A DNA stretch of 39,402 nucleotides from Bacteroidales bacterium (GTDB lineage Bacteria; Bacteroidota; Bacteroidia; Bacteroidales; UBA7960), in the NCBI GenBank assembly GCA_007129355.1, contig SKVR01000235.1, positions 1 to 39,402 on the forward strand, read 5' to 3'. Under the pieces are notes generated by a model. That model was not told the DNA's origin. It made no database searches and saw only the letters and a program-made list of their open reading frames with translations. Positions 26,256 to 39,155 of this stretch are shown piece by piece (position 1 is the stretch's first letter; every line of letters starts with the position of its first letter). The position numbers and the translations under genes are program-made.

Positions 26256-26666
26256 TTAATAGGGTTCTTTAATAAACTTTTCCAGGGTTTGACCTTCAAA
26301 ATAGGATTTAAACTGGTCGGTAACACTTTTTACCATTCCTCCCAACAAACATTTATCGAAAGGACATATTTTCCGGTCTAAGGGACATTCCGGTGTTTCA
26401 ATCTTACCTTCTATTGCCTGATATACGTCAAGAATGGTTATTTCAGAAGGATGTACATTAAGTACAAAGCCGCCACTGGGTCCGCGAACGGATTTCAGGT
26501 AGTTATATTTTACCAGTTGTTGCAACACCTTTGCAAGGTGATTTCGTGATGCTCCCATTTCCTGGGAGAGTATATTTACATTGATATGAGTATCAGATTT
26601 TGCTATGAGTACCATAGCATGTATAGCCAGAGACGCAGCTTCAGATAAATGAACAATTTTAGCCAT
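26256..26666 (-). CDS. Rrf2-family regulator with three-cysteine Fe-S motif
   Basis: This 136-residue winged-helix protein has the Rrf2 DNA-binding region with MGASRNHLAKVLQQLVKYNYL (38-58) and RGPSGGFVL (61-69). The ligand region carries Cys94, Cys101 and Cys106 (C-x6-C-x4-C), the spacing type that holds an Fe-S cluster in IscR and NsrR relatives. It is the last gene of the hydG transcription unit, 53 bp after the second TM1266-like gene. It may tune hydrogenase maturation to Fe-S status, NO or O2; target and ligand are not shown by the sequence. Confidence 0.9.
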   Translation of the reverse strand: MAKIVHLSEAASLAIHAMVLIAKSDTHINVNILSQEMGASRNHLAKVLQQLVKYNYLKSVRGPSGGFVLNVHPSEITILDVYQAIEGKIETPECPLDRKICPFDKCLLGGMVKSVTDQFKSYFEGQTLEKFIKEPY

Positions 26667-26719: not shown

Positions 26720-26971
26720 TTAAAAAGTCATTTTCCGGACTGCAACCCCATCCATAGTAAGGAGTTCATTTTCGAGTCGTCCGCACTCTTCCATATCTCC
26801 CATAAGTTCAAGGATAATAAGACCAGCTTCACCGGCTTCAGGAATATCCAGTTCATTTAATCCAAGGCGTGTTTTAATACTACACCCGTATTTGGTAAAA
26901 ATTTCCTGCAAACGGGTTGCATGCTTTTCCTTTTCTTTTACCATTACACCTAAAATCACGAGTTGATCCAT
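26720..26971 (-). CDS. TM1266-family putative hydrogenase-system regulator, copy 2
   Basis: This 83-residue protein has an ACT-like beta-alpha-beta pattern: VILGVMVKEKEKHATRLQEI, then KYGCSIKTRLGLNEL, then a GLIILELMGD strand and a final VAVRKMTF strand. It matches the TM1266 family of small proteins found beside [FeFe]-hydrogenase maturation genes and proposed to be regulators. It is a clear paralogue of the next gene upstream (86 residues); both share IxTRLGxxEL. It has a Cys at position 30 in KYGCS that the paralogue lacks. The gap to its paralogue is 41 bp. Confidence 0.85.
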   Translation of the reverse strand: MDQLVILGVMVKEKEKHATRLQEIFTKYGCSIKTRLGLNELDIPEAGEAGLIILELMGDMEECGRLENELLTMDGVAVRKMTF

Positions 26972-27012
26972 GATAATTTGATTAAGTTTATTAATCTTTT
27001 TATTTAAAATGT

Positions 27013-27273
27013 TCAGGAGTTTTTAAATTTCATGATTTGAACTTCTACTCCACCAATATCTTCCAGCTCCTTCTGGAGCTTATCCCAAATGGTTTGATCG
27101 CCCTGTAGAACTAAAAGTATTGTGCCTACCCTGCTGCATACATCTCTTGAAAGTTCATGAAATCCGAGTCTTGTCCGGATGGCTGCTGCATATTTGCTGA
27201 GTACTTCCTGGGTTTTACCGGCTTCTTTTATACGGTCGTAAACCATGATTCCCATTATTCTTGACTGATGCAT
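27013..27273 (-). CDS. TM1266-family putative hydrogenase-system regulator, copy 1
   Basis: This 86-residue protein has the same fold pattern as its downstream neighbour: SRIMGIMVYDRIKEAGKTQE, KYAAAIRTRLGFHEL, a GTILLVLQGD strand and VEVQIMKFKNS. The TM1266 family is restricted largely to organisms with [FeFe]-hydrogenases and sits beside hydE, hydF or hydG. No DNA-binding domain is visible, so it may act through a partner or bind a small ligand or metal. It lies 34 bp after hydG. Confidence 0.85.
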   Translation of the reverse strand: MHQSRIMGIMVYDRIKEAGKTQEVLSKYAAAIRTRLGFHELSRDVCSRVGTILLVLQGDQTIWDKLQKELEDIGGVEVQIMKFKNS

Positions 27274-27307: not shown

Positions 27308-28735
27308 TTAAAAGTAAAGGTCACGTTTACCATCTTTCACAAGGTTGACTTTTTCCCTGAGCTTTTCAACATTTTGATGATTTGAAAGATCGGCTATTTT
27401 CTCATCAATGAGCTTATAACCTTTTTCTTTGGTATCCTGAGGAGCATAATCTTCAAGGTATTCTGCCAGGGTGAGCAAAGCGTTGGGGGAGCAAAATCTT
27501 TTAATAAAACCTGGTACTGAAAATTCCATAAAATGCTCGCCGGTGCGGCCCAGCCTGTAACATGCGGTGCAAAATGATGGTATATAACCGGTTTTGATAA
27601 GTTCATCCATTATTTCATTCAGCGAACGGTTGTCATTAATCTGAAACTGCTTCATGGTAAGGTCCTGGGTATCTTTTTTGGCTTTGCTGTATCCACCCAG
27701 TTCCAGGTTGGTACCACCATCAATCTGTGAAACTCCGAAACGTAAAACCTGGTCGCGTATTTCCTTTGGTTCACGAGCTGTTAGGATCATGCCGGTATAG
27801 GGCACTGCCAATCTTAAAACAGACACCAGCCTGACAAACTCGTCGTCCTTTACCAGGTGTGCTTTATCGATATTAAGTGAAAGTGCATTTTGTATCCTTG
27901 GAAAGCTTATGGTGTGCGGTCCCACTTTATAAACAGCTTCAAAGTGATTGACATGGCGCACCAGTCCCAGGACTTCAAATCTCCAGTCATATAGTCCAAA
28001 TAAAGCACCGATTCCCACGTCATCAATCCCTGCTTCCTGTGCACGGTCAAGAGCAGTAAGACGCCAGTCGTAATTTCTTTTAACACCGCCAAGGTGCACT
28101 TTAGCATATGTAGGTTCGTGATAGGTTTCCTGGAAAATCTGGAATGTGCCGATGCCTGAATCCTTTATGGTACGAAAACCATTGATATCAAATGGTGCAG
28201 CATTGATATTGACACGACGGATTTCGCCATTGTCATGCTTTACACCATAAACAATATTTACAGTTTCGGCAATAAACTCAGCTGAATATTTGGGATGTTC
28301 ACCATAAACAAGAATGAGCCGTTTGTGCCCCTGATCAATAAGAGCTGTAGATTCGTTGATAAGTTCTTCCTTGCTGAGGGTAATTCGCTTCATACCCTTG
28401 TTTTCGGCTCTGAATCCGCAATACTGGCAATTATTAATGCACAGATCTCCTACATAAAGGGGTGCAAAAAGCACAATACGCTCACCATAAACCTTTTCCT
28501 TAAGTGTACGGGCTCCTTCTTTGATTTCTTCAATAAGGTCAGGTTCTTCGGCGTTCAAAAGAATGGCTGTTTCTTCGAGAGATAGCCGTTTTTTATCCAG
28601 TGATGCTTTAATGATTTCTCTCACCCTATGTTTATCGCCTTTGGAGTAGTTGATGAAATTCCAGATTTCATCAGGATCAATGAATGGCTTCATTCTTTGA
28701 TCCTTAATGCTGTAATTTTCAGGGTGGTATATCAT
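27308..28735 (-). CDS. hydG: [FeFe]-hydrogenase H-cluster maturase HydG
   Basis: This 475-residue radical-SAM enzyme cleaves tyrosine to supply CO and CN ligands for the H-cluster. The radical-SAM cluster motif is CINNCQYC (Cys99, Cys103, Cys106). The C-terminal motif SFCTACYRLG with Cys389 and Cys392, then Cys415 after exactly 22 residues (CX2CX22C), is diagnostic of HydG and separates it from ThiH and HydE. I chose the ATG at 28735 (MIYHPENYS). The frame extends upstream to a TTG at 28792, but that would lie inside the promoter and add residues not typical of HydG. It heads a unit with the two TM1266-like genes and the Rrf2 gene. No hydE or hydF is present in the window. Confidence 0.95.
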   Translation of the reverse strand: MIYHPENYSIKDQRMKPFIDPDEIWNFINYSKGDKHRVREIIKASLDKKRLSLEETAILLNAEEPDLIEEIKEGARTLKEKVYGERIVLFAPLYVGDLCINNCQYCGFRAENKGMKRITLSKEELINESTALIDQGHKRLILVYGEHPKYSAEFIAETVNIVYGVKHDNGEIRRVNINAAPFDINGFRTIKDSGIGTFQIFQETYHEPTYAKVHLGGVKRNYDWRLTALDRAQEAGIDDVGIGALFGLYDWRFEVLGLVRHVNHFEAVYKVGPHTISFPRIQNALSLNIDKAHLVKDDEFVRLVSVLRLAVPYTGMILTAREPKEIRDQVLRFGVSQIDGGTNLELGGYSKAKKDTQDLTMKQFQINDNRSLNEIMDELIKTGYIPSFCTACYRLGRTGEHFMEFSVPGFIKRFCSPNALLTLAEYLEDYAPQDTKEKGYKLIDEKIADLSNHQNVEKLREKVNLVKDGKRDLYF

Positions 28736-28763
28736 GGTAATCCTTATTTCGGTGATTATGGTA

Positions 28764-28793
28764 CAAAAATACGGAAATTTTAAGCAAAGCAAA
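28764..28793 (-). promoter_or_regulatory. Promoter of hydG
   Basis: On the minus strand TTTG (28790-28793) is followed after 18 nt by TATTTTTG (28764-28771), an exact TAnnTTTG, 28 bp upstream of the ATG. It separates the hydG unit from the hydCBA unit. Confidence 0.55.
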
Positions 28794-29713: not shown

Positions 29714-30634
29714 TCAATACAATAATTCGTCAACGTCTTCCCTTGCGTCTTCCAGTTCCCTGTTATCGATTTGCCCGTCAAGGAAAGCTTCTGTTCCTTT
29801 AATTTTCTTATAGAAATAGACTGTAACCTTAACTCCATCAAGCAAAACATTATCGTACAAGAGGGTTGTGTCAACAAATCTTTGCCCCTGGTCATTTTCA
29901 CATATTACAGTCATTGATTTCAAATATTCATCGCTGCAGATAGTATTGGTGGCATAAACCCCAGGGGGTGGAATCAGCTTTTCTTCTTCAGGAATAGTTA
30001 TCCTGAAAAAATTATGGTTTTTAATTCCTTTTAAACCGGGTGAATCGCTGAACCTTCCTCTTATAATGTATTGATGATCAAGATAGGCATTTGCTCTCAT
30101 GATATTTCCTTCCAGAAGCGCTTTTCGAATTTTAGTAGAACTTACTATTTCATTTTCAATATCCTGCAGAGGAATATCCTCCACCCTGAAACCCATTTCC
30201 TGACTTAATTTATAGAGATACGAGAAATCACCTGAACGATTATGTCCGAAATGGTGATTCTGCCCCACAATGATAACCTTTGTCTTAAGCTGTTCTATGA
30301 GAATATCGGTAATGAAATCGTGCGATGTGGTTTTAGAAAACTCTTTTGAAAATGGAATGATAACAAGGTTATCCAGACCTGTTTTTGATAATAGCTTGAC
30401 TTTTTCTTCCTGTGAGTTAATAAGTTTAAGATCTTTCTGCTCCGGATACAAAACCTTACGGGGGTGCGGATGAAATGTAACCAATGTAGATTCACCGCTT
30501 ATTTCATCGGCAATCTGTTTTAACCTTTCAATTATAACTTTATGCCCAACGTGCACGCCATCAAAGGAGCCGGTAGTTACAACTGTATTTTTTACCTTTT
30601 CACTGGCTTCACGTGCATCATGAAAAACTCTCAT
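29714..30634 (-). CDS. ribF: RibF-like FAD synthetase with degenerate flavokinase domain
   Basis: This 306-residue protein has the length of bifunctional RibF (riboflavin kinase and FMN adenylyltransferase). The N-terminal adenylyltransferase half is intact: TTGSFDGVHVGH (20-31), FHPHPRKVL, GQNHHFGHNRSGD (124-136) and VSSTKIR (164-170). In the C-terminal half the usual GxGRxLGFPTAN nucleotide-binding motif is not recognisable (RGRFSDSPGLKGIKNHNFF, 192-210). The catalytic-strand motif EVHLLDF is also replaced, around 252-262, while PPPGVYA and the final QIDNRELEDAR are kept. It therefore probably makes FAD from FMN but may not phosphorylate riboflavin. It sits 28 bp after rex and 25 bp before the PhnP-like gene. 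Confidence 0.88.
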   Translation of the reverse strand: MRVFHDAREASEKVKNTVVTTGSFDGVHVGHKVIIERLKQIADEISGESTLVTFHPHPRKVLYPEQKDLKLINSQEEKVKLLSKTGLDNLVIIPFSKEFSKTTSHDFITDILIEQLKTKVIIVGQNHHFGHNRSGDFSYLYKLSQEMGFRVEDIPLQDIENEIVSSTKIRKALLEGNIMRANAYLDHQYIIRGRFSDSPGLKGIKNHNFFRITIPEEEKLIPPPGVYATNTICSDEYLKSMTVICENDQGQRFVDTTLLYDNVLLDGVKVTVYFYKKIKGTEAFLDGQIDNRELEDAREDVDELLY

Positions 30635-30662: not shown

Positions 30663-31313
30663 TTATGCCTGATCCTGCATATCCTGTTTTACAAAGAAAG
30701 CAAGTTTTTCAAGCGAGGTAACAATATCATACTCTTCCAGAAATACGCCTTCAGGTACTGATAAAGGAACTGATGTATAATTCAGAATCCCCTTTATTCC
30801 TGCATCAAGCAGCATTTTAGCTACATCGTAGGTGGCTTCGGGAGCCACTGTTAGTATAGCTATTTTTATGTTTTCAGCCGGAAGCACTTCCTTGAGTTGA
30901 TTTACATGATGACAAGGAACTCCGGCAATAATACGATTGGCTTTTTGCGTATCATTATCAAAAGCAGCTACTATGGAAAGACGTTCTCTTTTTCCTGTAA
31001 AGTAGCTGGTGATGGCTCTTCCCAGGTTTCCCATACCCACTATTGCAACTTTCTGTGGTTCTTTACTATCAATGATTTTACCAATAAGGCTGATAAGGTC
31101 TTTTATCAAATACCCCTTACTCTGGCTACCTGAATATCCGATAAGCATTAAATCGCGTCTTACCTGCACGGGGGTAAGGTTCATCATACGGGCTAGTTCA
31201 TGTGAGTAAACGTTGGTTTTGCCTTCATGTATGCTATTGTAAAGAATTCTTCTATACTGACTGAGGCGTTCAATGGTTTTGCCCGGTAAATCTTTACTGT
31301 TTTTTAGGTCCAT
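30663..31313 (-). CDS. rex: Redox-sensing transcriptional repressor Rex
   Basis: This 216-residue protein has an N-terminal winged-helix domain (about 1-80, ending LTPVQVRRDLMLIG) and a Rossmann domain with VAIVGMGNLGRA (GxGxxG at 93-98). It ends with a helix that swaps between subunits in the family. Rex binds its operator when NADH is low and lets go when NADH rises, so it links fermentation and hydrogen genes to the NADH/NAD+ ratio. It is encoded within the hydrogenase operon, 28 bp after the receiver-kinase gene. A matching operator lies just upstream of hydC (39138-39155), so it probably controls its own operon. Confidence 0.95.
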   Translation of the reverse strand: MDLKNSKDLPGKTIERLSQYRRILYNSIHEGKTNVYSHELARMMNLTPVQVRRDLMLIGYSGSQSKGYLIKDLISLIGKIIDSKEPQKVAIVGMGNLGRAITSYFTGKRERLSIVAAFDNDTQKANRIIAGVPCHHVNQLKEVLPAENIKIAILTVAPEATYDVAKMLLDAGIKGILNYTSVPLSVPEGVFLEEYDIVTSLEKLAFFVKQDMQDQA

Positions 31314-31341: not shown

Positions 31342-32463
31342 CTATGTTAAAGGAAATCTTATGGTAAAAGTGCTTCCCTGGCCCGGCTTACTTTCAACCT
31401 GAATTTTTGCATTATATAGGTCTGCTATCTTTTTAACGATTGATAGCCCCAGTCCGGTGCCACTTATATGTTTTGTTTCTTCACTTTTAATTCGCACAAA
31501 ATCTTCAAAAAGCTTGTCAATATCTTTTTTCTCCATTCCTATTCCTGTGTCACTTACACTTAGAAAAACTTCATTTTTTTCTTTCTTAAGTATAAGGTCA
31601 ATCCTGCCACTTTGTTTATTGTATTTTACCGCATTAGATAGAAGGTTATTCAGAATAATTTCAAGTTCCTGCCGATCAGCTTTTAACGTAATTTTATCAT
31701 TGCAATTCAAATGGATATCAATATCTTTCTGAATACAAAGAGGTTGCATGAGATCAATGGATTGTTGTGCAATTTCGCGCAGAAAAATGGGTTTTATGTT
31801 TCGTTGTTTTTTGCCTGACTCTATTTTTGTAAAATCCAGCAGATCCATAATAAGATTTCTCATATCCTGCACACGTGCCAGCGACCTTTGCACCATCTCC
31901 ATATAGTCATCGACATTATCACCCATTTTTTTGATTTCCATAAGCCTGAGATAACCCTCTATAGCGTTGATGGGTGATTTGAGCTCATGCGACAGGACCG
32001 AAAGAAACTGAAACCGTATGTGTTTACCCTCTACCTGTAATTTTTGGGTCATCCGGCGCAGAAAGAGTTGCTTGGCAATATTTTCAAGACAATTTCGCAA
32101 TTCCTTGGGGGTAAAAGGTTTGGGAACAAAATCATATGCACCGCTTTTGGTTGCTTTAACAGCGAGATCAAGCGATGCATAGGATGTAATCATAACTACG
32201 ATGACATCTATGCCCTGGTTGTTAATATATTCAAGGACTTCAACACCTTGTATTCCCGGAAGCTTATTATCGAGCAAAACAATATCAAACAAATAGTTGT
32301 CGATGAGTTCAATAGCTTCTTCGCCTGTTGCGGCTTCCAGCACATCAAACTCAAAGTCTTCATCCATAAAAGGATAACTTACCGTGAAACTCTCCAGAAT
32401 ACGTTTAATTCCACTGCGTATTCCCGGTTCGTCGTCTACTACCAGCAGGTTCAGTTTTCCCAT
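31342..32463 (-). CDS. Receiver-histidine kinase hybrid
   Basis: This 373-residue cytoplasmic protein carries its receiver domain at the N-terminus (about 1-125: Asp10, Asp11, phospho-acceptor Asp65, Lys115). A short coiled coil leads to a HisKA domain with His159 in SVLSHELKSPINA, then a HATPase domain with LNNLLSNAVKYN, SDTGIGM and GTGLGLSIVKK. There are no transmembrane segments and no other sensor domain. The order suggests it is switched by phosphorylation of its own receiver, perhaps from the H-cluster kinase two genes upstream, and then passes phosphate on to another regulator. It starts 3 bp after the single-domain receiver gene. Confidence 0.9.
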   Translation of the reverse strand: MGKLNLLVVDDEPGIRSGIKRILESFTVSYPFMDEDFEFDVLEAATGEEAIELIDNYLFDIVLLDNKLPGIQGVEVLEYINNQGIDVIVVMITSYASLDLAVKATKSGAYDFVPKPFTPKELRNCLENIAKQLFLRRMTQKLQVEGKHIRFQFLSVLSHELKSPINAIEGYLRLMEIKKMGDNVDDYMEMVQRSLARVQDMRNLIMDLLDFTKIESGKKQRNIKPIFLREIAQQSIDLMQPLCIQKDIDIHLNCNDKITLKADRQELEIILNNLLSNAVKYNKQSGRIDLILKKEKNEVFLSVSDTGIGMEKKDIDKLFEDFVRIKSEETKHISGTGLGLSIVKKIADLYNAKIQVESKPGQGSTFTIRFPLT

Positions 32464-32466
32464 TAC

Positions 32467-32865
32467 TTATATTTTCAGCAGCTTATTGATTTCTTTATGA
32501 AGCTGATCATTCCTTATTCCTTTATCAAGAAACAGATCGGCCTTGATCCATTGCCGGTCTTCTTCCGATTCTACGTCGAAAAGCAAACCCGTTTCTGATG
32601 TAACAGCCGATGCAATGATTATAGGAACATCAGGATATTTGTTTTTGATAATATGACACAATATGAATCCTGTATCCTGATTTTCCATCATGAGATCCAG
32701 GATAGCAAGATCAGGTTTCAGTTTATCAATAATATTTTCAGCTTCCTGCTGGGTTTGAGCTGCAATTACTTCAAAACCCATATCTTCAAGCGCTATGGTA
32801 AGCTGAAATAAATAATCGGTATCATCATCAACCAACAGAATCTTCTTTTTTTCAATTTTAAGCAT
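32467..32865 (-). CDS. Single-domain response regulator
   Basis: This 132-residue protein is a receiver domain only. It has the acidic pocket VDDD (13-15), the phospho-acceptor Asp57 in LAILDLMM and the conserved Lys115 in FLDKGI. No DNA-binding or enzymatic output domain follows. It lies between two kinases, 24 bp after the H-cluster kinase gene and 3 bp before the receiver-kinase gene. It may shuttle phosphate between them; this is inferred from order only. Confidence 0.9.
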   Translation of the reverse strand: MLKIEKKKILLVDDDTDYLFQLTIALEDMGFEVIAAQTQQEAENIIDKLKPDLAILDLMMENQDTGFILCHIIKNKYPDVPIIIASAVTSETGLLFDVESEEDRQWIKADLFLDKGIRNDQLHKEINKLLKI

Positions 32866-32889: not shown

Positions 32890-34920
32890 TCAATTTGCTT
32901 TTACTTCTTCTGTAACTCCGGGCAAACTTACAAAGAAACTGGTACCCAGGGGGCCTTTTTCGGGGTTATCATTTGAATCAACCTTGATATTTCCCTTGTG
33001 CATTTTAACAATACCGTAAATGATTGGCAATCCTAGTCCGGTTCCCTTTCCATCCTCCTTTGTGGTAAAGAAGGGTTCAAACATCCGCTCCAAATTTTCG
33101 GGCGAAATACCCGTACCTGTATCTTTTATGGTAAATATCAACCCTTCCGGGTTACTGTTATCGTCTTCAACTTTTATATTCAACTCACCACCTTCCGGCA
33201 TTGCATCTATTGCATTTTTTGCCAGATTTGAAAACACCTGTACCATCTGATCATGATCGCAGGCAATTTCCTGTTGCAAGCTATTTATTTCAATTTTAAG
33301 GTCGATATCGGGAGGCATTACTATAGCTTTGAGGCTGTTTTTAATCAGCTTCCGGATTTTAACCTCTTCAATATTTACTTTGCTTTTTCTTGCAAAGTTA
33401 AGCAATCCTCCTACTATCTTTTTGCAACGATCGGCTTGATCAACAATCAGCTTAAGATCTTTATAGAAAGGAGAATCAGGTTCCATATCATCCAGTAAAA
33501 GATGGGCATACATAATTACTATTCCCAGCGGATTATTTACCTCATGTGCAATTCCAGCTGCAAGTTGCCCCATAGATGCAAGCTTTTCTGATTGTTTGAG
33601 TGCAGCCTGGGTTGAAGCCAGTTTTTCGTTGGAAACATCGAGCTCAGAAATGTATTTATGCAGTTTATCAATGGTATAAGGCAAACACATTTCGGTTTCA
33701 GCTATACCCTTTAAAATGGCTATTGCATGTTCGTGGCATGTATCATAACCGCATGCTGTACAGTTCAATTCATCATCCTGACTTGTAATTCCAAGCTTTT
33801 CTTTTACTTTATTGATTTGTTCTTTTGTAAAATCAGACGGATAGCGCTGATCATCGGCAATAAAGTACCTGTCAAGTTTAATCCCTGAGAATTTTTCCTT
33901 ATTTTTTAGCCATTCGGTTTGATCCAGCCTGTCAAACTGGCGCTTGGCAAAGTTGCTGATATTTTTTCTTTTCAGGAAGAACTGGTGCCTGTTACTCATT
34001 CCGGGTCCGTTTAGGCAGCCATTGCAGCATAAAAGGTCGAATAATTTGGCTTCAAGGTAACCCTCTTCGAATTCCTTCAGAACTTCAGTGATGTTATGGC
34101 GACCTTCTGCTACAACAATTTCACCACTGAGAAAATCTTCTTCAAGGTCAACTGTTTGAAGCATGCCACCACTTATTGGGAATACAGAGCCTTTGCCGGC
34201 AATGGGTTGGTCAAATTCTGAAGGTTCAACTTTATCAGGAGTAATCTTCTTTTCATCAAACATTCTGCGCATTTCAATGAAAGAGATCACCTCATAAACC
34301 AAATCCTTAAACTGACCCAGCATAGCTTCACCTTTTTTGGCTATGCATGGCCCGATAAAAACAATTTTCAAATCTTTCCCATGCATCTCGTGCAAAACTT
34401 TAGCGGTGGCAATCATAGGAGAGACAATCGGAGCAAGAGATTTTATGATTTGGGGATGATGTTTCTCTACATAAGTTACAATAGCAGGGCAACTGGTTGA
34501 TATATAAGTTTGTTTCTGATCCTTTTGCAGAAGTTCTTTAAATTTATCTGCAACAAGCTCGGCACCAAAAGCCACTTCATTCACATAATCGAATCCGAGA
34601 GCTCTTATCATACCCACAAGAATCTGGTAATCTGAAATATCAATAAATTCTCCGGCTACACTAGGTGCAATGATGGCAGCAACTTTATCCTCGCTGTTTA
34701 TCAGTTTCTTAACCCTGTCAATTGAAAAGGAAAACATTTTTGCATCCCTGTTGCATACTTTCACGCAGTTACCGCAGGCAATACAACGTTCAGTAATGAT
34801 CTCAGCCTGTCCGTTCATGATCCTGATTGCCTTGGCAGGGCATTCTCTTACACAGGTATAGCAAACCTTGCAACGATCTTTTACCGTGTAAATGAACTGA
34901 TTTTTTGGTGTTTGTATCAT
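32890..34920 (-). CDS. hydS: H-cluster hydrogenase-like domain fused to a histidine kinase (HydS-type sensor)
   Basis: This 676-residue soluble protein has five parts. Two [4Fe-4S] ferredoxin motifs come first (Cys17, 20, 23, 27 and Cys46, 49, 52, 56). An [FeFe]-hydrogenase-like domain follows (about 78-310) with all H-cluster Cys positions: STSCPAI (Cys144), IGPCIAKKGE (Cys192) and CCNGC (Cys298, Cys302). An Fe-S domain carries CTACGYDTC and Cys412 (about 387-412). A coiled coil leads to a HisKA domain with His459 in GIAHEVNNP, and a HATPase domain ends the protein (FTIKDTGTGIS, GTGLGLPI). The residue before Cys144 is Ser, where catalytic hydrogenases have the proton-relay Cys, which suggests sensing rather than turnover. 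It resembles the histidine-kinase-linked sensory group of [FeFe]-hydrogenases. It lies 58 bp after hydA. Confidence 0.92.
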   Translation of the reverse strand: MIQTPKNQFIYTVKDRCKVCYTCVRECPAKAIRIMNGQAEIITERCIACGNCVKVCNRDAKMFSFSIDRVKKLINSEDKVAAIIAPSVAGEFIDISDYQILVGMIRALGFDYVNEVAFGAELVADKFKELLQKDQKQTYISTSCPAIVTYVEKHHPQIIKSLAPIVSPMIATAKVLHEMHGKDLKIVFIGPCIAKKGEAMLGQFKDLVYEVISFIEMRRMFDEKKITPDKVEPSEFDQPIAGKGSVFPISGGMLQTVDLEEDFLSGEIVVAEGRHNITEVLKEFEEGYLEAKLFDLLCCNGCLNGPGMSNRHQFFLKRKNISNFAKRQFDRLDQTEWLKNKEKFSGIKLDRYFIADDQRYPSDFTKEQINKVKEKLGITSQDDELNCTACGYDTCHEHAIAILKGIAETEMCLPYTIDKLHKYISELDVSNEKLASTQAALKQSEKLASMGQLAAGIAHEVNNPLGIVIMYAHLLLDDMEPDSPFYKDLKLIVDQADRCKKIVGGLLNFARKSKVNIEEVKIRKLIKNSLKAIVMPPDIDLKIEINSLQQEIACDHDQMVQVFSNLAKNAIDAMPEGGELNIKVEDDNSNPEGLIFTIKDTGTGISPENLERMFEPFFTTKEDGKGTGLGLPIIYGIVKMHKGNIKVDSNDNPEKGPLGTSFFVSLPGVTEEVKAN

Positions 34921-34978: not shown

Positions 34979-36697
34979 CTACTTCAATACATCTCTTTTC
35001 TTAAAATGGGTATGCAAACGGCTAAGATTTTCTTTGCTGTCATATTTCGATTTGACAAATTCAATCATTTGGATATTTTCTGCTGAATTCCTTATCTTGG
35101 TATTCTTTTCAAGTTCCTGACTAATTTTTTTCCTTGTGCGATGTTTGTCCTGAAAATAAAATATAGGTTGTCCACCCCCACCGGCACAACCACCCTGACA
35201 AGCCATAATTTCAACAAAATGTATATCGTTGCGTTTTTCAGCCTTCAGCAAGTCTAAATACTTCTGAGCTTCAGCAATACCGCTAACCCAGGCAAATCCA
35301 AATTCCTGTTTGCCAATTTTAATTTTCACTTCCTTTTTGCTGCCCGGATTTTTAGGTGGAGTGAACTTAAAACCTGTTTTTCTGTCGCCATTAATTATTT
35401 GATTTAACTGTAATGCAATGGCCTCGGCTTTTCCACCTGTATATGACATCTGGTAACCGGCAGCAGATGAAATATTAAACGGGCTGTCGGGTTGGGCAGG
35501 CTCCAGTCGTGTAATGTTTATTCCATAACTGCGTAACATTTTTATAAACTCCCTGACAGTAAGAGTTGCATCGATTTCTGATACACCTTTCCTGGTATTT
35601 TCTTCCCGTGATGCTTCAAACTTATTGGCTACACATGCCATGAGTGATACAGTATACAGCTGTCTGGATTCATTATCTGCTTCAGCATTCCCTTCATTCT
35701 TAACCAGGTAACCCATTAATTGCTGAGGAGATTTGGCTATTGATATATCAGTAATTATTTCAGGAGAAAACTCCTCGGCATATTTTATCCAGGCCGGGCA
35801 ACAGGATGACAGCATGGGAGTAACAAGCTTTCTAGTGGATCTCTCAATCAATAGTTTAGCCTCCAGATAAACATTCAAGTCATTGGCCCACCCCTGGTCA
35901 TAAACTTTACGGAAACCCATAGTTCGCAGAGCTGAAATAATATAACCTGCCGGTTGATCGGAAGTCTTAATATTAAAATGATCGGCCACTGAAGCTACAA
36001 AAGCCGGAGATAGAAATGCAACAGGATACTTCTTTGTACTTTCAATGGCTGTTTGAACTTTTTCTATATGAGAAATATCTACCAGAGCACCTGTGGGACA
36101 AACCATTATACATTGTCCGCAATTTATACAACTTGATATATTGAGTCCCTTGTTAAATGCAGAGTTAACGGTAGTTTTATTGCCTCTTGAGATAAATTCT
36201 ATGGCGGTTACCAGTTGCACTTCTTCACATATCCTTACACAACGGTTGCACAAAATACATTTGGCAGGATCGCGGTAAACTGATGGGCTGGAATGATCGC
36301 GTTTTTCTGTTTTTTTATGGCTGAAATATTTTCTTTCCTTAATATTCATTTCCTCTGCCAGCCATTGAAGCTCACAATTTCCGTTTCTTTCACAGTAAAG
36401 ACAATCATCAGGATGATTCGAAAGAAGCATTTCAACCAAAGATTTCTTTGCCTTATTTACCCTTGTGGAGTTGGTTTTTACAACCATGCCGGGTTCAACC
36501 GGATAGGCACATGAGGTTACAAGGTCTCTTTTACCTTCCACTTCCACCACACAAAGCCGACATGCGCCAGATGGTGTAAATCCGGGCATATAGCATAGAG
36601 TTGGAATTTTTATACCATTTCTGCGCAAGGTATTAAGCAGTATTTCACCTTCCTGAACCTCTATGGGTGTATTATTTACTTGAATGGTAAAGCTCAT
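34979..36697 (-). CDS. hydA: [FeFe]-hydrogenase catalytic subunit HydA
   Basis: This 572-residue protein is the H2-activating subunit of a trimeric HydABC-type enzyme. Its N-terminal [2Fe-2S] domain has Cys35, 46, 49 and 63. A His-ligated cluster uses His95, Cys99, 102 and 108, and two [4Fe-4S] clusters use Cys147, 150, 153, 157 and Cys190, 193, 196, 200. The H-domain shows SSCCPAW (Cys299, Cys300), SLMACVANKFEASR (Cys355) and EIMACQGGCAGGGGQP (Cys500, Cys504). The second motif departs from the usual MPCxxKKxE: Ala354 replaces Pro and Asn358 replaces Lys. Leu282 replaces the proton-path Glu. I chose the ATG at 36697 (MSFTIQVNN), 13 bp after hydB; the frame is open upstream, but those residues overlap hydB. 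Confidence 0.94.
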   Translation of the reverse strand: MSFTIQVNNTPIEVQEGEILLNTLRRNGIKIPTLCYMPGFTPSGACRLCVVEVEGKRDLVTSCAYPVEPGMVVKTNSTRVNKAKKSLVEMLLSNHPDDCLYCERNGNCELQWLAEEMNIKERKYFSHKKTEKRDHSSPSVYRDPAKCILCNRCVRICEEVQLVTAIEFISRGNKTTVNSAFNKGLNISSCINCGQCIMVCPTGALVDISHIEKVQTAIESTKKYPVAFLSPAFVASVADHFNIKTSDQPAGYIISALRTMGFRKVYDQGWANDLNVYLEAKLLIERSTRKLVTPMLSSCCPAWIKYAEEFSPEIITDISIAKSPQQLMGYLVKNEGNAEADNESRQLYTVSLMACVANKFEASREENTRKGVSEIDATLTVREFIKMLRSYGINITRLEPAQPDSPFNISSAAGYQMSYTGGKAEAIALQLNQIINGDRKTGFKFTPPKNPGSKKEVKIKIGKQEFGFAWVSGIAEAQKYLDLLKAEKRNDIHFVEIMACQGGCAGGGGQPIFYFQDKHRTRKKISQELEKNTKIRNSAENIQMIEFVKSKYDSKENLSRLHTHFKKRDVLK

Positions 36698-36710: not shown

Positions 36711-38660
36711 TTATTCAACCAGAACTGCATTGAACTTACATACTTCAAAGCATGCATTGCAGGCAATACATTTATCCTGTACTATGAAATGAGGTTGTCT
36801 TGGTGTTCCGATAATAGCATCAACCGGGCATTTTTTATAGCAGGCTGTGCAACCCGTGCACAGGTCAACATCAATGGTATAGGTTTTCAGATCGCGACAA
36901 ACCCCTGCAGGGCATTTACGCTCAAATACGTGTGCATCAAATTCTGGTTTAAAATTAGCCAGTGTATTCAAAATAGCATTGGGTGCTGATTTTCCAAGGG
37001 CACAAAGACTGGTATCTTTCATTACATCTGCCATGCCTTTAAGCTGCATAATCCCTTTAAACCGCTCCAGGGTTTGAAATGAGTTTTCTTTCTCGGGTTT
37101 TCTGGTGGCGGTTTCAATAATTTCAAGCATCCTGGCTGTTCCCTCCCTGCATGGAATGCATTTACCACAACTCTCATTTTTAAAAAACCGTGTAAAAAAC
37201 TTAGCCAGATCAAGCATGCAGGAATTTTTGTCTACCACTACACAAGCTCCGCTTCCCAGTGCTGAACCAATTTCTTTTAAGGCGTCAAAATCAACAATAG
37301 TATCGAGTGTTTTTTCCGTTATGTAGCTTCCGCTATTAATTCCCAGGATTATTGCTTTAAACTCCTGTTCATCTTTTATACCCCCTCCGATTTTACCTAC
37401 AATTTCCCTGAAACTCATACCCATTTCCACTTCAATGGTTCCGTAGTTCTTAACTTTACCACTTAGGCTAAATAATTTAGTTCCCTTGCTGGTTTCGTTT
37501 CCAATCCCTTTAAACCACTCAGGACCGTTTTTCATGATCAAGGGTACATTTATCAAGGTTTCCAGGTTATTTACGATGGTAGGCTTGTTCCAGAGCCCTT
37601 TGATGGCTGGAAAAGGTGGTTTGGAAACAGGCATAGCACGTTTTCCTTCTATGCTGTTGTTAAGTGCTGTTTCTTCACCGCAAACAAATGCTCTGGCACC
37701 TTCTTTTACTGCAATATCAATATTTACACCTGAGTCAAAAATATTATGCCCTAAAATACCATATTCTTCGGCTTCTTTTAGTGCCATTTTTATTCTTTCA
37801 ATAGCCAACGGAAATTCGCGACGTGTAAAAATAAATGCTTTGGAAGCCCCGATGGCATATGATGCTATAAGCAAAGCTTCAATGAGTCTGTGCGGGTCAC
37901 TTTCCATGATTACACGATTCATATAGCTGCCCGGATCACTCTCCACGGCATTGCAAACAAAATACTTCTGATCGCTAACGGCATTAAGGGAAATTTTCCA
38001 CTTTTTGCCAGCAATATAGGCACCACCGCCCCTGCCGGCAAGCATACTTTCTTCCACAATATCGCAAACCTGGGCCGGTGTATACTGAGTTATGGTATCA
38101 GAAAAAGCCTGATAACCGCCCCGGGCAATATATTCAGAAATAGACACAGGATCAATGATGCCGCAATTTGACATCAGCATCTTTTTCTGGGGTTTATTAA
38201 AATCAAGTTCATCAAGAAACGGAGCATCATCCCATGGCTGATGAATAGCGCTGCGATATTGCCCTAATACGAGTTCTGTTGGAACATGATTATTCAGGAT
38301 TTCATCCAGAAACACAGGCACCATATCGTACTTTACATTTTTAAAAGAGATTCTTGCTTTTCCGGGCATCTGCACATCGACCAGAGGCTCAGCTGTGCAA
38401 TAACCAACGCAACCACCCTTTACAAGATCAGCATCAAAATGAGTATCTTCAAGGTAGGAAGCAATAGCATCATAGGTTTTTGCGGCACCGGCTGCAATAC
38501 CACAGGTTCCAGTACCAACATATATTAAGGGTCTGGTAATTCTTTCGTGGCCAATATACGACAATTGTTTAGCAACATCACTGTCATTTCTGCGATCAGG
38601 ATTGCGCAAAACCTTATGTATTAAAAACTCCTTTACAGAGTTAGGATCATTGCTCTTCAT
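36711..38660 (-). CDS. hydB: HydB, NuoF-like flavoprotein subunit of the hydrogenase
   Basis: This 649-residue protein has an N-terminal thioredoxin-like [2Fe-2S] domain (Cys53, Cys84, Cys88). The NuoF core with FMN and NAD(H) sites spans about 170-480. The ESCGKCIPC cluster motif (Cys498, 501, 504, with Cys553) follows, and two C-terminal [4Fe-4S] motifs end the protein (Cys601, 604, 607, 611 and Cys631, 634, 637, 641). It should pass electrons between NAD(H) and HydA. Several glycine-rich nucleotide loops differ from NuoF: AGRGGGAYIAGKKW (for RGGAGFPTGxKW), CNAVESDPG (for NADExxPG) and ILGINSGSY (for GGPSGG). GEETALNNSIEG and KPPFPA are kept. It overlaps hydC by 14 bp in another frame. Confidence 0.93.
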   Translation of the reverse strand: MKSNDPNSVKEFLIHKVLRNPDRRNDSDVAKQLSYIGHERITRPLIYVGTGTCGIAAGAAKTYDAIASYLEDTHFDADLVKGGCVGYCTAEPLVDVQMPGKARISFKNVKYDMVPVFLDEILNNHVPTELVLGQYRSAIHQPWDDAPFLDELDFNKPQKKMLMSNCGIIDPVSISEYIARGGYQAFSDTITQYTPAQVCDIVEESMLAGRGGGAYIAGKKWKISLNAVSDQKYFVCNAVESDPGSYMNRVIMESDPHRLIEALLIASYAIGASKAFIFTRREFPLAIERIKMALKEAEEYGILGHNIFDSGVNIDIAVKEGARAFVCGEETALNNSIEGKRAMPVSKPPFPAIKGLWNKPTIVNNLETLINVPLIMKNGPEWFKGIGNETSKGTKLFSLSGKVKNYGTIEVEMGMSFREIVGKIGGGIKDEQEFKAIILGINSGSYITEKTLDTIVDFDALKEIGSALGSGACVVVDKNSCMLDLAKFFTRFFKNESCGKCIPCREGTARMLEIIETATRKPEKENSFQTLERFKGIMQLKGMADVMKDTSLCALGKSAPNAILNTLANFKPEFDAHVFERKCPAGVCRDLKTYTIDVDLCTGCTACYKKCPVDAIIGTPRQPHFIVQDKCIACNACFEVCKFNAVLVE

Positions 38661-39129
38661 AGATTGAAATATGATTTTCCCTGAAATGTTTCAGAATGTC
38701 TTTTAAGGAATCTGGAGTAAGCTGAGTAAAATACTCGCCATTGATCTCAATAAGTGGAGCTAGTCCGCAAGCTCCAATACAGGATACAACTTCAAGGCTG
38801 AACAGACCATTCTTGTCAGTTTCACCGTTACTAATCTTGAGCTGTTTTTTAAGTTCGGATAAAATATGAAATGAACCGGCCACATGGCAGCCAGTTCCAT
38901 GACAAAGTCTTATGTGAAATTTGCCCTTGGGTCCGAAACAGAAATTATCATAAAAGGTAGCAACCCCATAAATCTTATTGACAGAAATATCAAGGTACTT
39001 TCCAACCTCAATGATCAACTCTTCAGACAAAAAGCCAAACTGATCCTGAATTTTATGCAAAAGGGGTATGAGGTCATCCCTTTGTTTGTTGGGGAAACTA
39101 TCAAAAATGGAACTTAATTTTGTGTCCAT
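38647..39129 (-). CDS. hydC: HydC, NuoE-like [2Fe-2S] subunit of the hydrogenase
   Basis: This 160-residue protein matches NuoE and the small subunit of HydABC enzymes. A helical N-terminal part is followed by a thioredoxin-like fold with one [2Fe-2S] cluster. The ligands are Cys76 and Cys81 in LCHGTGC, and Cys117 and Cys121 in SCIGAC. The family motif GVATFYDNFCFGPKGK precedes them. It is the first gene of the hydrogenase operon; its end overlaps hydB by 14 bp, which suggests coupled translation and matched subunit amounts. The ATG at 39129 lies 8 bp downstream of a Rex-operator match. Confidence 0.95.
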   Translation of the reverse strand: MDTKLSSIFDSFPNKQRDDLIPLLHKIQDQFGFLSEELIIEVGKYLDISVNKIYGVATFYDNFCFGPKGKFHIRLCHGTGCHVAGSFHILSELKKQLKISNGETDKNGLFSLEVVSCIGACGLAPLIEINGEYFTQLTPDSLKDILKHFRENHISIYEEQ

Positions 39130-39137
39130 AGTTTTGG

Positions 39138-39155
39138 CTGCTAATTTTTTAACAA
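39138..39155 (-). promoter_or_regulatory. Rex operator upstream of hydC
   Basis: The site reads CTGCTAATTTTTTAACAA on the plus strand. It matches the clostridial Rex consensus TTGTTAAnnnnTTAACAA at 12 of 14 defined positions, with one half-site perfect. It ends 8 bp before the hydC start codon, and rex is in the same operon. Confidence 0.6.

Follow-up and report, generated by a model that had tools for sequence, protein, structure and literature searches.

This locus raises the question of what a protein that joins a hydrogenase-type H-domain to a histidine kinase does when its gene lies directly behind those of a hydrogenase. The window, i.e., the whole 39,402-nt stretch of DNA that was analysed, is one entire contig (C23) of the assembly. 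The gene occupies positions 32890..34920 of the minus strand, as do all the window features given below at their own positions, and is a single ATG-initiated ORF of 676 aa. Pfam placed two 4Fe-4S ferredoxin motifs at aa 11-59 (34744..34890; Fer4_10/Fer4_9, with the Fer4_10 match at aa 11-56 and the cysteines C17/20/23/27 and C46/49/52/56), the Fe_hyd_lg_C H-domain at aa 79-306 (34003..34686; 3.1e-49; Cys 144, 192, 299, and 302), an FeS domain of the form Cx2Cx4Cx16C at aa 385-414 (33679..33768; PF04060, 4.6e-8), a HisKA domain with the phospho-acceptor H459 at aa 450-512 (33385..33573; 7.8e-13), and HATPase_c at aa 555-667 (32920..33258; 4.5e-25). The phospho-acceptor His and the N, G1, and G2 boxes of a HisKA sensor kinase were all found in the protein. 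A first-pass annotation, made from the letters and the ORF list, had read two ferredoxin motifs, an H-domain, an FeS domain, and a full kinase in one chain, and the ORF scan and Pfam bore this out. It had also proposed a domain search for Fe_hyd_lg_C, FeS, HisKA, and HATPase_c, and all four matched. No PAS match was obtained in the window protein at E<=0.01 (Pfam); a PAS domain was therefore rejected.

The sensor kinase gene follows hydC (38647..39129; NuoE-like) and hydB (36711..38660; NuoF-like, 649 aa), both recognised by profile matches, and then hydA, the group A catalytic subunit (34979..36697 from a putative start codon; the longest ORF extends to 36766), from which it is separated by 58 nt. 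Downstream, after a gap of 24 nt, are a response regulator of 132 aa with a receiver domain only (32467..32865; PF00072), a REC-HisKA-HATPase protein of 373 aa (31342..32463; Pfam), and the Rex redox (NADH/NAD+) repressor (30663..31313; NCBIfam Rex above cut-off). The position right after hydCBA and the absence of PAS thus agree with the first-pass annotation. Rex is followed by the conserved neighbour ribF, encoding FAD synthetase/riboflavin kinase (29714..30634; PF06574, PF01687), a metallo-beta-lactamase-fold protein, and the H-cluster maturase hydG (27308..28792; TIGR03955 above cut-off), which is given here as the longest ORF and starts approximately 19 aa later in most relatives. The conserved block ends with an Rrf2-family regulator (26256..26666; PF02082, 1e-26). 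Between hydG and this regulator lie two tandem CPF_0552/TM1266-like small proteins (26720..27273; NF052672, 85.3 bits each against a cut-off of 85), relatives of which were called in 16/80 and 13/80 of the loci described below. Since HydE and HydF are encoded elsewhere in the genome, alongside the HydG of the window, this organism is presumably able to make H-clusters.

The distribution of the protein was then considered. In genomes of the same family, 33/35 had an orthologue spanning the chain completely or for the most part (search rows read by eye); four of these were split between two contigs, an in-frame stop was reported for two, and the genomes without an orthologue were G020 and G029. 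Such orthologues were found in 5/24 other genomes of the same order. Overall, 59/59 related genomes gave a match in the search, many of these matches being to the kinase only. A phylum-wide draw of 148 genomes gave 16 with a match at E<=1e-60, namely nine full-length, one split over two ORFs, and six to the kinase part only. A relative was encoded by at least 541 of the 591 candidate stretches from a named genome collection, and the best 80 of the 541 were kept. The query was the H-domain and FeS part alone (aa 1-440), so the kinase was not selected for. The best 80 came from Bacteroidetes, Planctomycetes, Hydrogenedentes, Marinimicrobia, Lentisphaerae, Caldisericia, Acidobacteria, Myxococcales, and others, nearly all of them MAGs; the closest among the matches listed, from which very near records may have been excluded, was 91% identical and belonged to the Bacteroidales MAG isolate CSSed162cmA_513. 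An accidental fusion or an assembly artefact was rejected, because orthologues of similar length in a similar gene order occur in many genomes.

The first-pass annotation had presented the PAS-less single-chain fusion as unusual, and this part of it did not hold. Among the 81 proteins scanned (the window protein and the best 80 of 541), Fe_hyd_lg_C, FeS, and HisKA were present in 81/81, HATPase_c in 79/81, and Fer4 in 80/81, with L056, L065, and L074 being cut at the C-terminus, and no member had a PAS match at E<=0.01. The PAS-less single-chain fusion is the rule in the family. The wider alignment held 100 kinase, 46 HydS, and 91 HydA rows, which correspond to 96, 44, and 87 distinct sequences as some contigs are duplicated across two sources. 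All eight ferredoxin cysteines were present in 99 of the 100 kinase rows, the remaining one lacking the N-terminus (L096 is split and entered the alignment without it). The four FeS-domain cysteines and H459 were each found in 100/100, and the N, G1, and G2 boxes in 97-98/100, the remainder being gaps.

We next turn to the H-site. The positions C300, C355, K358, E361, C499, and C503 (CpI numbering), which we take to be ligand and pocket positions of the H-cluster, C300 among them as a cluster ligand, have equivalents that are invariant in 96/96 distinct kinase rows; likewise, the four H-domain cysteines and the K358 and E361 equivalents are invariant in 81/81 rows of the family alignment (the window protein and one row per named locus). 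MAFFT and BLAST alignments both paired C299 of the sensor kinase with CpI C499. The neighbouring C298 was rejected as the counterpart, since this column held C in 86, A in 10, S in 3, and L in 1 of the 100 rows while C299 was invariant. The first-pass annotation had counted all four cluster Cys positions; four cysteines are indeed there, but the last pair, in the L3 loop, is CxxC and not CxxxC. The CxxC pair was seen in 96/96 distinct kinase rows, in the distant kinase fusions L137, L138, and L141, and in most companion HydS rows (see below) that keep both L3 cysteines, and it is one residue shorter than the CxxxC found in 85/85 distinct HydA rows with Cys in the second column, in the HydS of Ruminococcus albus and Monoglobus, and in group B and group-D-like sequences. 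Since the loop is one residue short, binding of an H-cluster is not assured. At the position of CpI C299 the kinase rows had D, S, T, P, A, or N, and Cys in none. The M353 equivalent was always Gly, as in Thermotoga maritima HydS, and that of M497 always Leu, as in TamHydS (C299, M353, and M497 in CpI numbering after the accessible text of PMC10055695). The window protein thus has Ser, Gly, Leu, and CxxC at C299, M353, M497, and L3, which are not the residues of a group A catalytic enzyme.

In many Bacteroidota relatives, a divergent operon accompanies the kinase operon and encodes a small 2Fe-2S protein, a Fer4-H-FeS protein with a weakly PAS-like tail (the companion HydS), and a SpoIIE phosphatase. 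In the genome of the window, this operon lies on another contig (L017, G000:C34, 525-3912). Its HydS is degenerate, with FYNKGC at L3 and Ala at the K358 equivalent, and its tail matched PAS_8 at E 0.018. The K358 equivalent was lost in 43/44 distinct companion/HydS rows; only L112, which falls outside the companion clade, keeps it. The first L3 Cys was kept in 20/44 distinct HydS rows and lost in 24/44, one of these being an alignment gap. R. albus HydS is flanked by the same kinds of genes as the companion HydS and is collinear with it to near the C-terminus at 25% identity. Because the companion HydS rows have lost H-site residues, it seems to be the kinase fusion that has stayed intact as a hydrogenase-type sensor. 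The K358 and E361 equivalents and the four cysteines look to be under selection in the kinase family, since they are invariant in 96/96 kinase rows while 43/44 distinct companion/HydS rows have lost the K358 equivalent. No report on K358 mutants was found in the literature searched.

The same residues bear on whether H2 would be sensed at all. The protein could be a pure redox sensor, in which the H-domain plays a structural part or, given the CxxC loop, holds only a [4Fe-4S] cluster, with the kinase using Fe-S clusters to read ferredoxin or the cellular redox state instead of H2. The constant CxxC of the kinase rows and of L137, L138, and L141, the conserved Fer4 and FeS cysteines, and the loss of the K358 equivalent and the first L3 Cys in companion/HydS rows, by which the lineage tolerates the loss of H-site residues, are all in line with such a sensor. 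However, a bare 4Fe-4S site does not obviously need the invariant K358 and E361 equivalents and the four H-domain cysteines, and the maturases HydE, HydF, and HydG are present (in the one genome examined for all three). We therefore consider a pure redox sensor unlikely, although it is the rival to be taken most seriously. The protein could also sense oxygen or Fe-S damage and close the operon down once its clusters break. It has several predicted Fe-S sites, and sites of these kinds are usually oxygen-labile; nevertheless, this would leave the kept [2Fe]-pocket residues unexplained, and we regard it as improbable.

The H-domain was placed by a tree of 80 sequences chosen from 237 family rows and 40 further H-domain matches, in which the group B and D labels were assigned from products, neighbours, and similarity; the plasmid match L121 had no H-domain ORF and was dropped. 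The group A, B, and D-like rows formed separate clades. The first-pass annotation had made its reading depend on an H-domain of the sensory group, and this is where it was found: the kinase fusions share a clade of 59 rows with the HydS of R. albus and Monoglobus and with further SpoIIE-linked sensors, at a UFBoot of 89, below 95, and an SH-aLRT of 95. Within it, a 41-row clade (99/97) comprises the main kinase family and 17 companion HydS rows, which are supported among themselves at 100/100. The companion clade was drawn inside the kinase family, yet the AU test does not reject a single kinase clade (p 0.412), so that nesting was not taken as certain and the companions may be either nested in the kinases or sister to them. 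As L137, L138, and L141 lie outside the 41-row clade, the kinase fusions as a whole may not form one clade. Membership of group A or D was rejected by the tree and the motifs; the three group-D-like rows, TamHydS not being among them, form their own long branch (100/100), to which the protein does not belong. With a sensory-group H-domain by the tree and a chain that also contains HisKA and HATPase_c, the sensor kinase appears to be of the kind that HydDB names group C1, in a tree that does not separate C1 from C2 and C3. Apart from this, four H-domain proteins of 607-1261 aa (L127, L128, L129, and L136) share a long branch (100/100), a first motif Q-P-C with Pro before Cys, and an extra Cys before L3, and are possibly another sensor class.

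The surroundings of the sensor kinase were compared in the 80 named loci, where the gene calls are ORF scans that miss genes under longer frames (e.g., the L030 regulator, which was called in the twin L041). HydA is immediately upstream in 69/80, or in 73/80 if one regulator in between is allowed, and this closeness speaks against the pure redox sensor. As for the other loci, four sensor kinases start within 210 nt of a contig edge, the nearest upstream gene called in L073 and L112 is Rex, and L113 has no hydrogenase gene called within 3.9 kb. The receiver-only regulator comes next downstream in 69/80 and the REC-kinase directly next in five, while five loci end at a contig edge within 310 nt downstream; neither was called in L112 in 9.3 kb downstream. 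The order regulator, then REC-kinase was seen in 64/80. In L044 and L045, rex comes after the regulator, and no REC-kinase was called between them. Gene order was largely preserved across 19 mapped loci. The regulator has an invariant receiver Asp (D57, together with K115, in 74/74 rows), and the Asp and His of the REC-kinase do not vary either (D65 and H159 in 67/67). The distant Bacteroidota L137, L138, and L141 have the cassette hydCBA, sensor kinase, response regulator, and REC-kinase, the last being longer (492-493 aa); a second hydCBA-like set follows closely behind it in L138 and L141.

No DNA-binding response regulator common to the cassette was found in the 80 named loci. Among unassigned ORFs of at least 110 aa, 8/80 loci had a regulator of the LuxR/NarL type (Pfam GerE), and two of the scanned 166-aa regulators from upstream are receiver-only. 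This, together with the tight placement after hydA, would suit a protein that serves HydABC as an extra catalytic or regulatory subunit, with a kinase that targets the hydrogenase complex and not a regulator. However, the proton-transfer Cys299 of group A is missing from all kinase rows, and HisKA/HATPase together with two receiver-domain neighbours that have an invariant Asp indicate His-Asp signalling. We consider an extra subunit very improbable.

A palindrome resembling a Rex operator lies at 39138..39155, 8 nt before the hydC start codon. For scoring, a TTGTTA-N6-TAACAA-like consensus, which we take to represent the Rex motif, was fixed beforehand, and a first-order Markov model served as the null. 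The sample comprised 82 regions upstream of hydC (42 + 24 + 16), a few duplicate contigs included. Scores of 9-10 out of 10 key positions were reached in 34/42 loci with rex downstream (2.3 expected), in 5/24 without rex in view (0.8 expected), and in 0/16 with rex upstream (0.2 expected). The window palindrome scored 8/10, a level often reached by shuffled sequences, and is located where the nearest relatives carry theirs. The TTGTTA-N6-TAACAA-like palindrome upstream of hydC agrees with the Rex motif applied to T. saccharolyticum, in which a site is likewise predicted for hfsABCD, according to the accessible part of PMC5886521. The transcription of the operon is probably set in parallel by Rex, i.e., by NADH/NAD+.

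A structure model built by AF2 from the 81-row alignment had a mean pLDDT of 85 and a pTM of 0.64. In a comparison with the PDB, which probes mainly aa 4-358 so that missing kinase matches carry no meaning, aa 3-356 matched CbA5H (8zqd_A; Z 42.5, rmsd 2.3, 346 aligned) and aa 4-357 matched CpI (4xdc_A; Z 39.0, rmsd 2.8, 350 aligned). A predicted helix of aa 413-478, which bears H459, begins immediately behind C412, the last cysteine of the FeS domain; as the pLDDT is 44-60 in aa 411-460, an unbroken helix is weakly supported there.

On balance, we lean towards a soluble single-chain H2 or redox sensor kinase with an FeS-capped helix wired into a phosphorelay, the sensing of H2 being putative. 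In such a sensor, the H-domain would carry an H-cluster tuned for detection and not for turnover. Its redox state would respond to H2, or to reduced ferredoxin acting by way of the N-terminal clusters, and an electron or a conformational signal would pass to the Cx2Cx4Cx16C cluster. The FeS domain would cap the helix of aa 413-478 leading to H459, and would thereby stand in for the PAS domain that other HydS proteins have. A change in autophosphorylation would follow, phosphate would be passed to the receiver-only regulator and/or the REC-HisKA-HATPase protein, and the phosphorelay would adjust the hydrogenase. Weighing against this reading are the shortened L3 loop, the low pLDDT of aa 411-460, the lack of a DNA-binding response regulator common to the cassette, the UFBoot below 95 for the sensory clade, and the exceptional loci L073, L112, and L113 (no hydA called nearby), L112 again (no regulator), and L044 and L045 (no REC-kinase). 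The first-pass annotation had proposed a soluble sensor that reports on the enzyme encoded beside it. The intact kinase motifs, the hydABC operon, and a genome with HydG, HydE, and HydF uphold this in part, together with the sensory placement of the H-domain; the architecture that it had presented as unusual is the rule in the family.

The linkage itself has been named before. HydDB, in the portion consulted, describes group C1 as "histidine kinase-linked (putative)" with an undetermined role, and, like its members, the window protein joins an H-domain of predicted sensory function to a histidine kinase (PMC5037454). In Hydrogenedentota, a 2024 study reports in its accessible passages that 21/53 C1 genes lie beside group A3 hydrogenases, that HATPase_c was found in the C1 proteins but is absent from the best HydDB C1 match, and that the P1-P3 motifs were "hardly" found (PMC11406978). 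The window protein differs in having a full HisKA-HATPase in one chain and a CxxC L3, which is absent from the C1 descriptions in those passages. The short loop may explain why the motifs were hardly found there. L113, a locus that by its title comes from the example genome of that study and may or may not be among the 53, has S-C-P, G-P-C-I-A-K-K, and A-C-Q-G-C. In Cloacimonadota, by the description at hand, a C1 gene adjoins a separate kinase gene. ING2E5A_0849 of Petrimonas mucosa, compared by description, is likewise a Bacteroidales [FeFe] group C1 protein near hnd genes (passages of PMC7768429).

Other sensors resemble the window protein over part of its length. R. albus HydS (WP_013483411.1, L117) has the same two Fer4, H-domain, and FeS arrangement, with 33% identity over 412 aligned positions and rex nearby; in contrast, it has a PAS-like C-terminus, a separate SpoIIE phosphatase, a CxxxC L3, and no kinase, and is SpoIIE-linked and C3-like by the wording of HydDB. 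The T. maritima HydS (M2f, group C), compared by description, shares two Fer4 motifs, the H-domain, FeS, and M353->G (PMC10055695, PMC8163306), but has PAS, C299->A, and M497->S, with no kinase mentioned in the parts of these sources consulted. Compared with such M2f or PAS-type, C3-like HydS proteins, the window kinase has no PAS after FeS and no adjacent SpoIIE. TamHydS of Thermoanaerobacter mathranii (M2e, group D) also lacks PAS and is encoded near bifurcating hydrogenase and histidine kinase-like ATPase genes, but there the kinase-like ATPase is a separate gene, as far as the available description goes (PMC8163306).

A dedicated search of the open-access literature for fused FeFe sensor kinases found no paper. 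In the open-access literature covered, which includes few subscription papers, neither the PAS-less single-chain family as such nor the CxxC loop nor the phosphorelay cassette was found to be described; the C1 linkage is known from HydDB, and these three features are apparently undescribed in the sources covered. It is conceivable, though doubtful, that the kinase family is a distinct class of H2 sensor in which the redox change of a modified CxxC H-cluster site is passed by the FeS domain directly to the kinase helix without PAS, next to a twin of the same H-domain lineage that lacks the H-site and shares an operon with SpoIIE. If so, one locus would hold a live and a "blind" hydrogenase-like sensor, with a His kinase and a Ser/Thr phosphatase as their outputs. 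According to passages of PMC8924675, the sensory role of group C [FeFe]-hydrogenases continues to be termed putative, as direct physiological evidence for it is scarce. In the characterised examples described in the sources consulted, the H-domain protein and the output are separate proteins. Here, an H-domain and a complete kinase are in one soluble chain with the likely receivers encoded adjacently, which makes the question of H2 sensing testable in one tube. The CxxC L3 loop is a natural test of how far the cradle of the H-cluster can vary, and this widespread, little-studied family could help to show how hydrogenase-like sensors pass on their signal.

Some observations concern the catalytic subunits. 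In the HydA of the window (34979-36697), the CpI K358 equivalent is Asn, which is uncommon for a catalytic subunit; in the 87 distinct HydA rows of the relatives it is Lys in 64, Asn in 10, and Met in 10. The loci flagged for a non-typical residue at this position were L018-L024, L033, L037, L044, L045, and L050. Another group A [FeFe]-hydrogenase, whose neighbours are HydC- and HydB-like, is encoded in the same genome (L139, G000:C190 18000-24726). The position of CpI C300 is Ser in 19/87 distinct HydA rows, giving a TSCSP-type motif as in the HydA1 chain of 7q4v.
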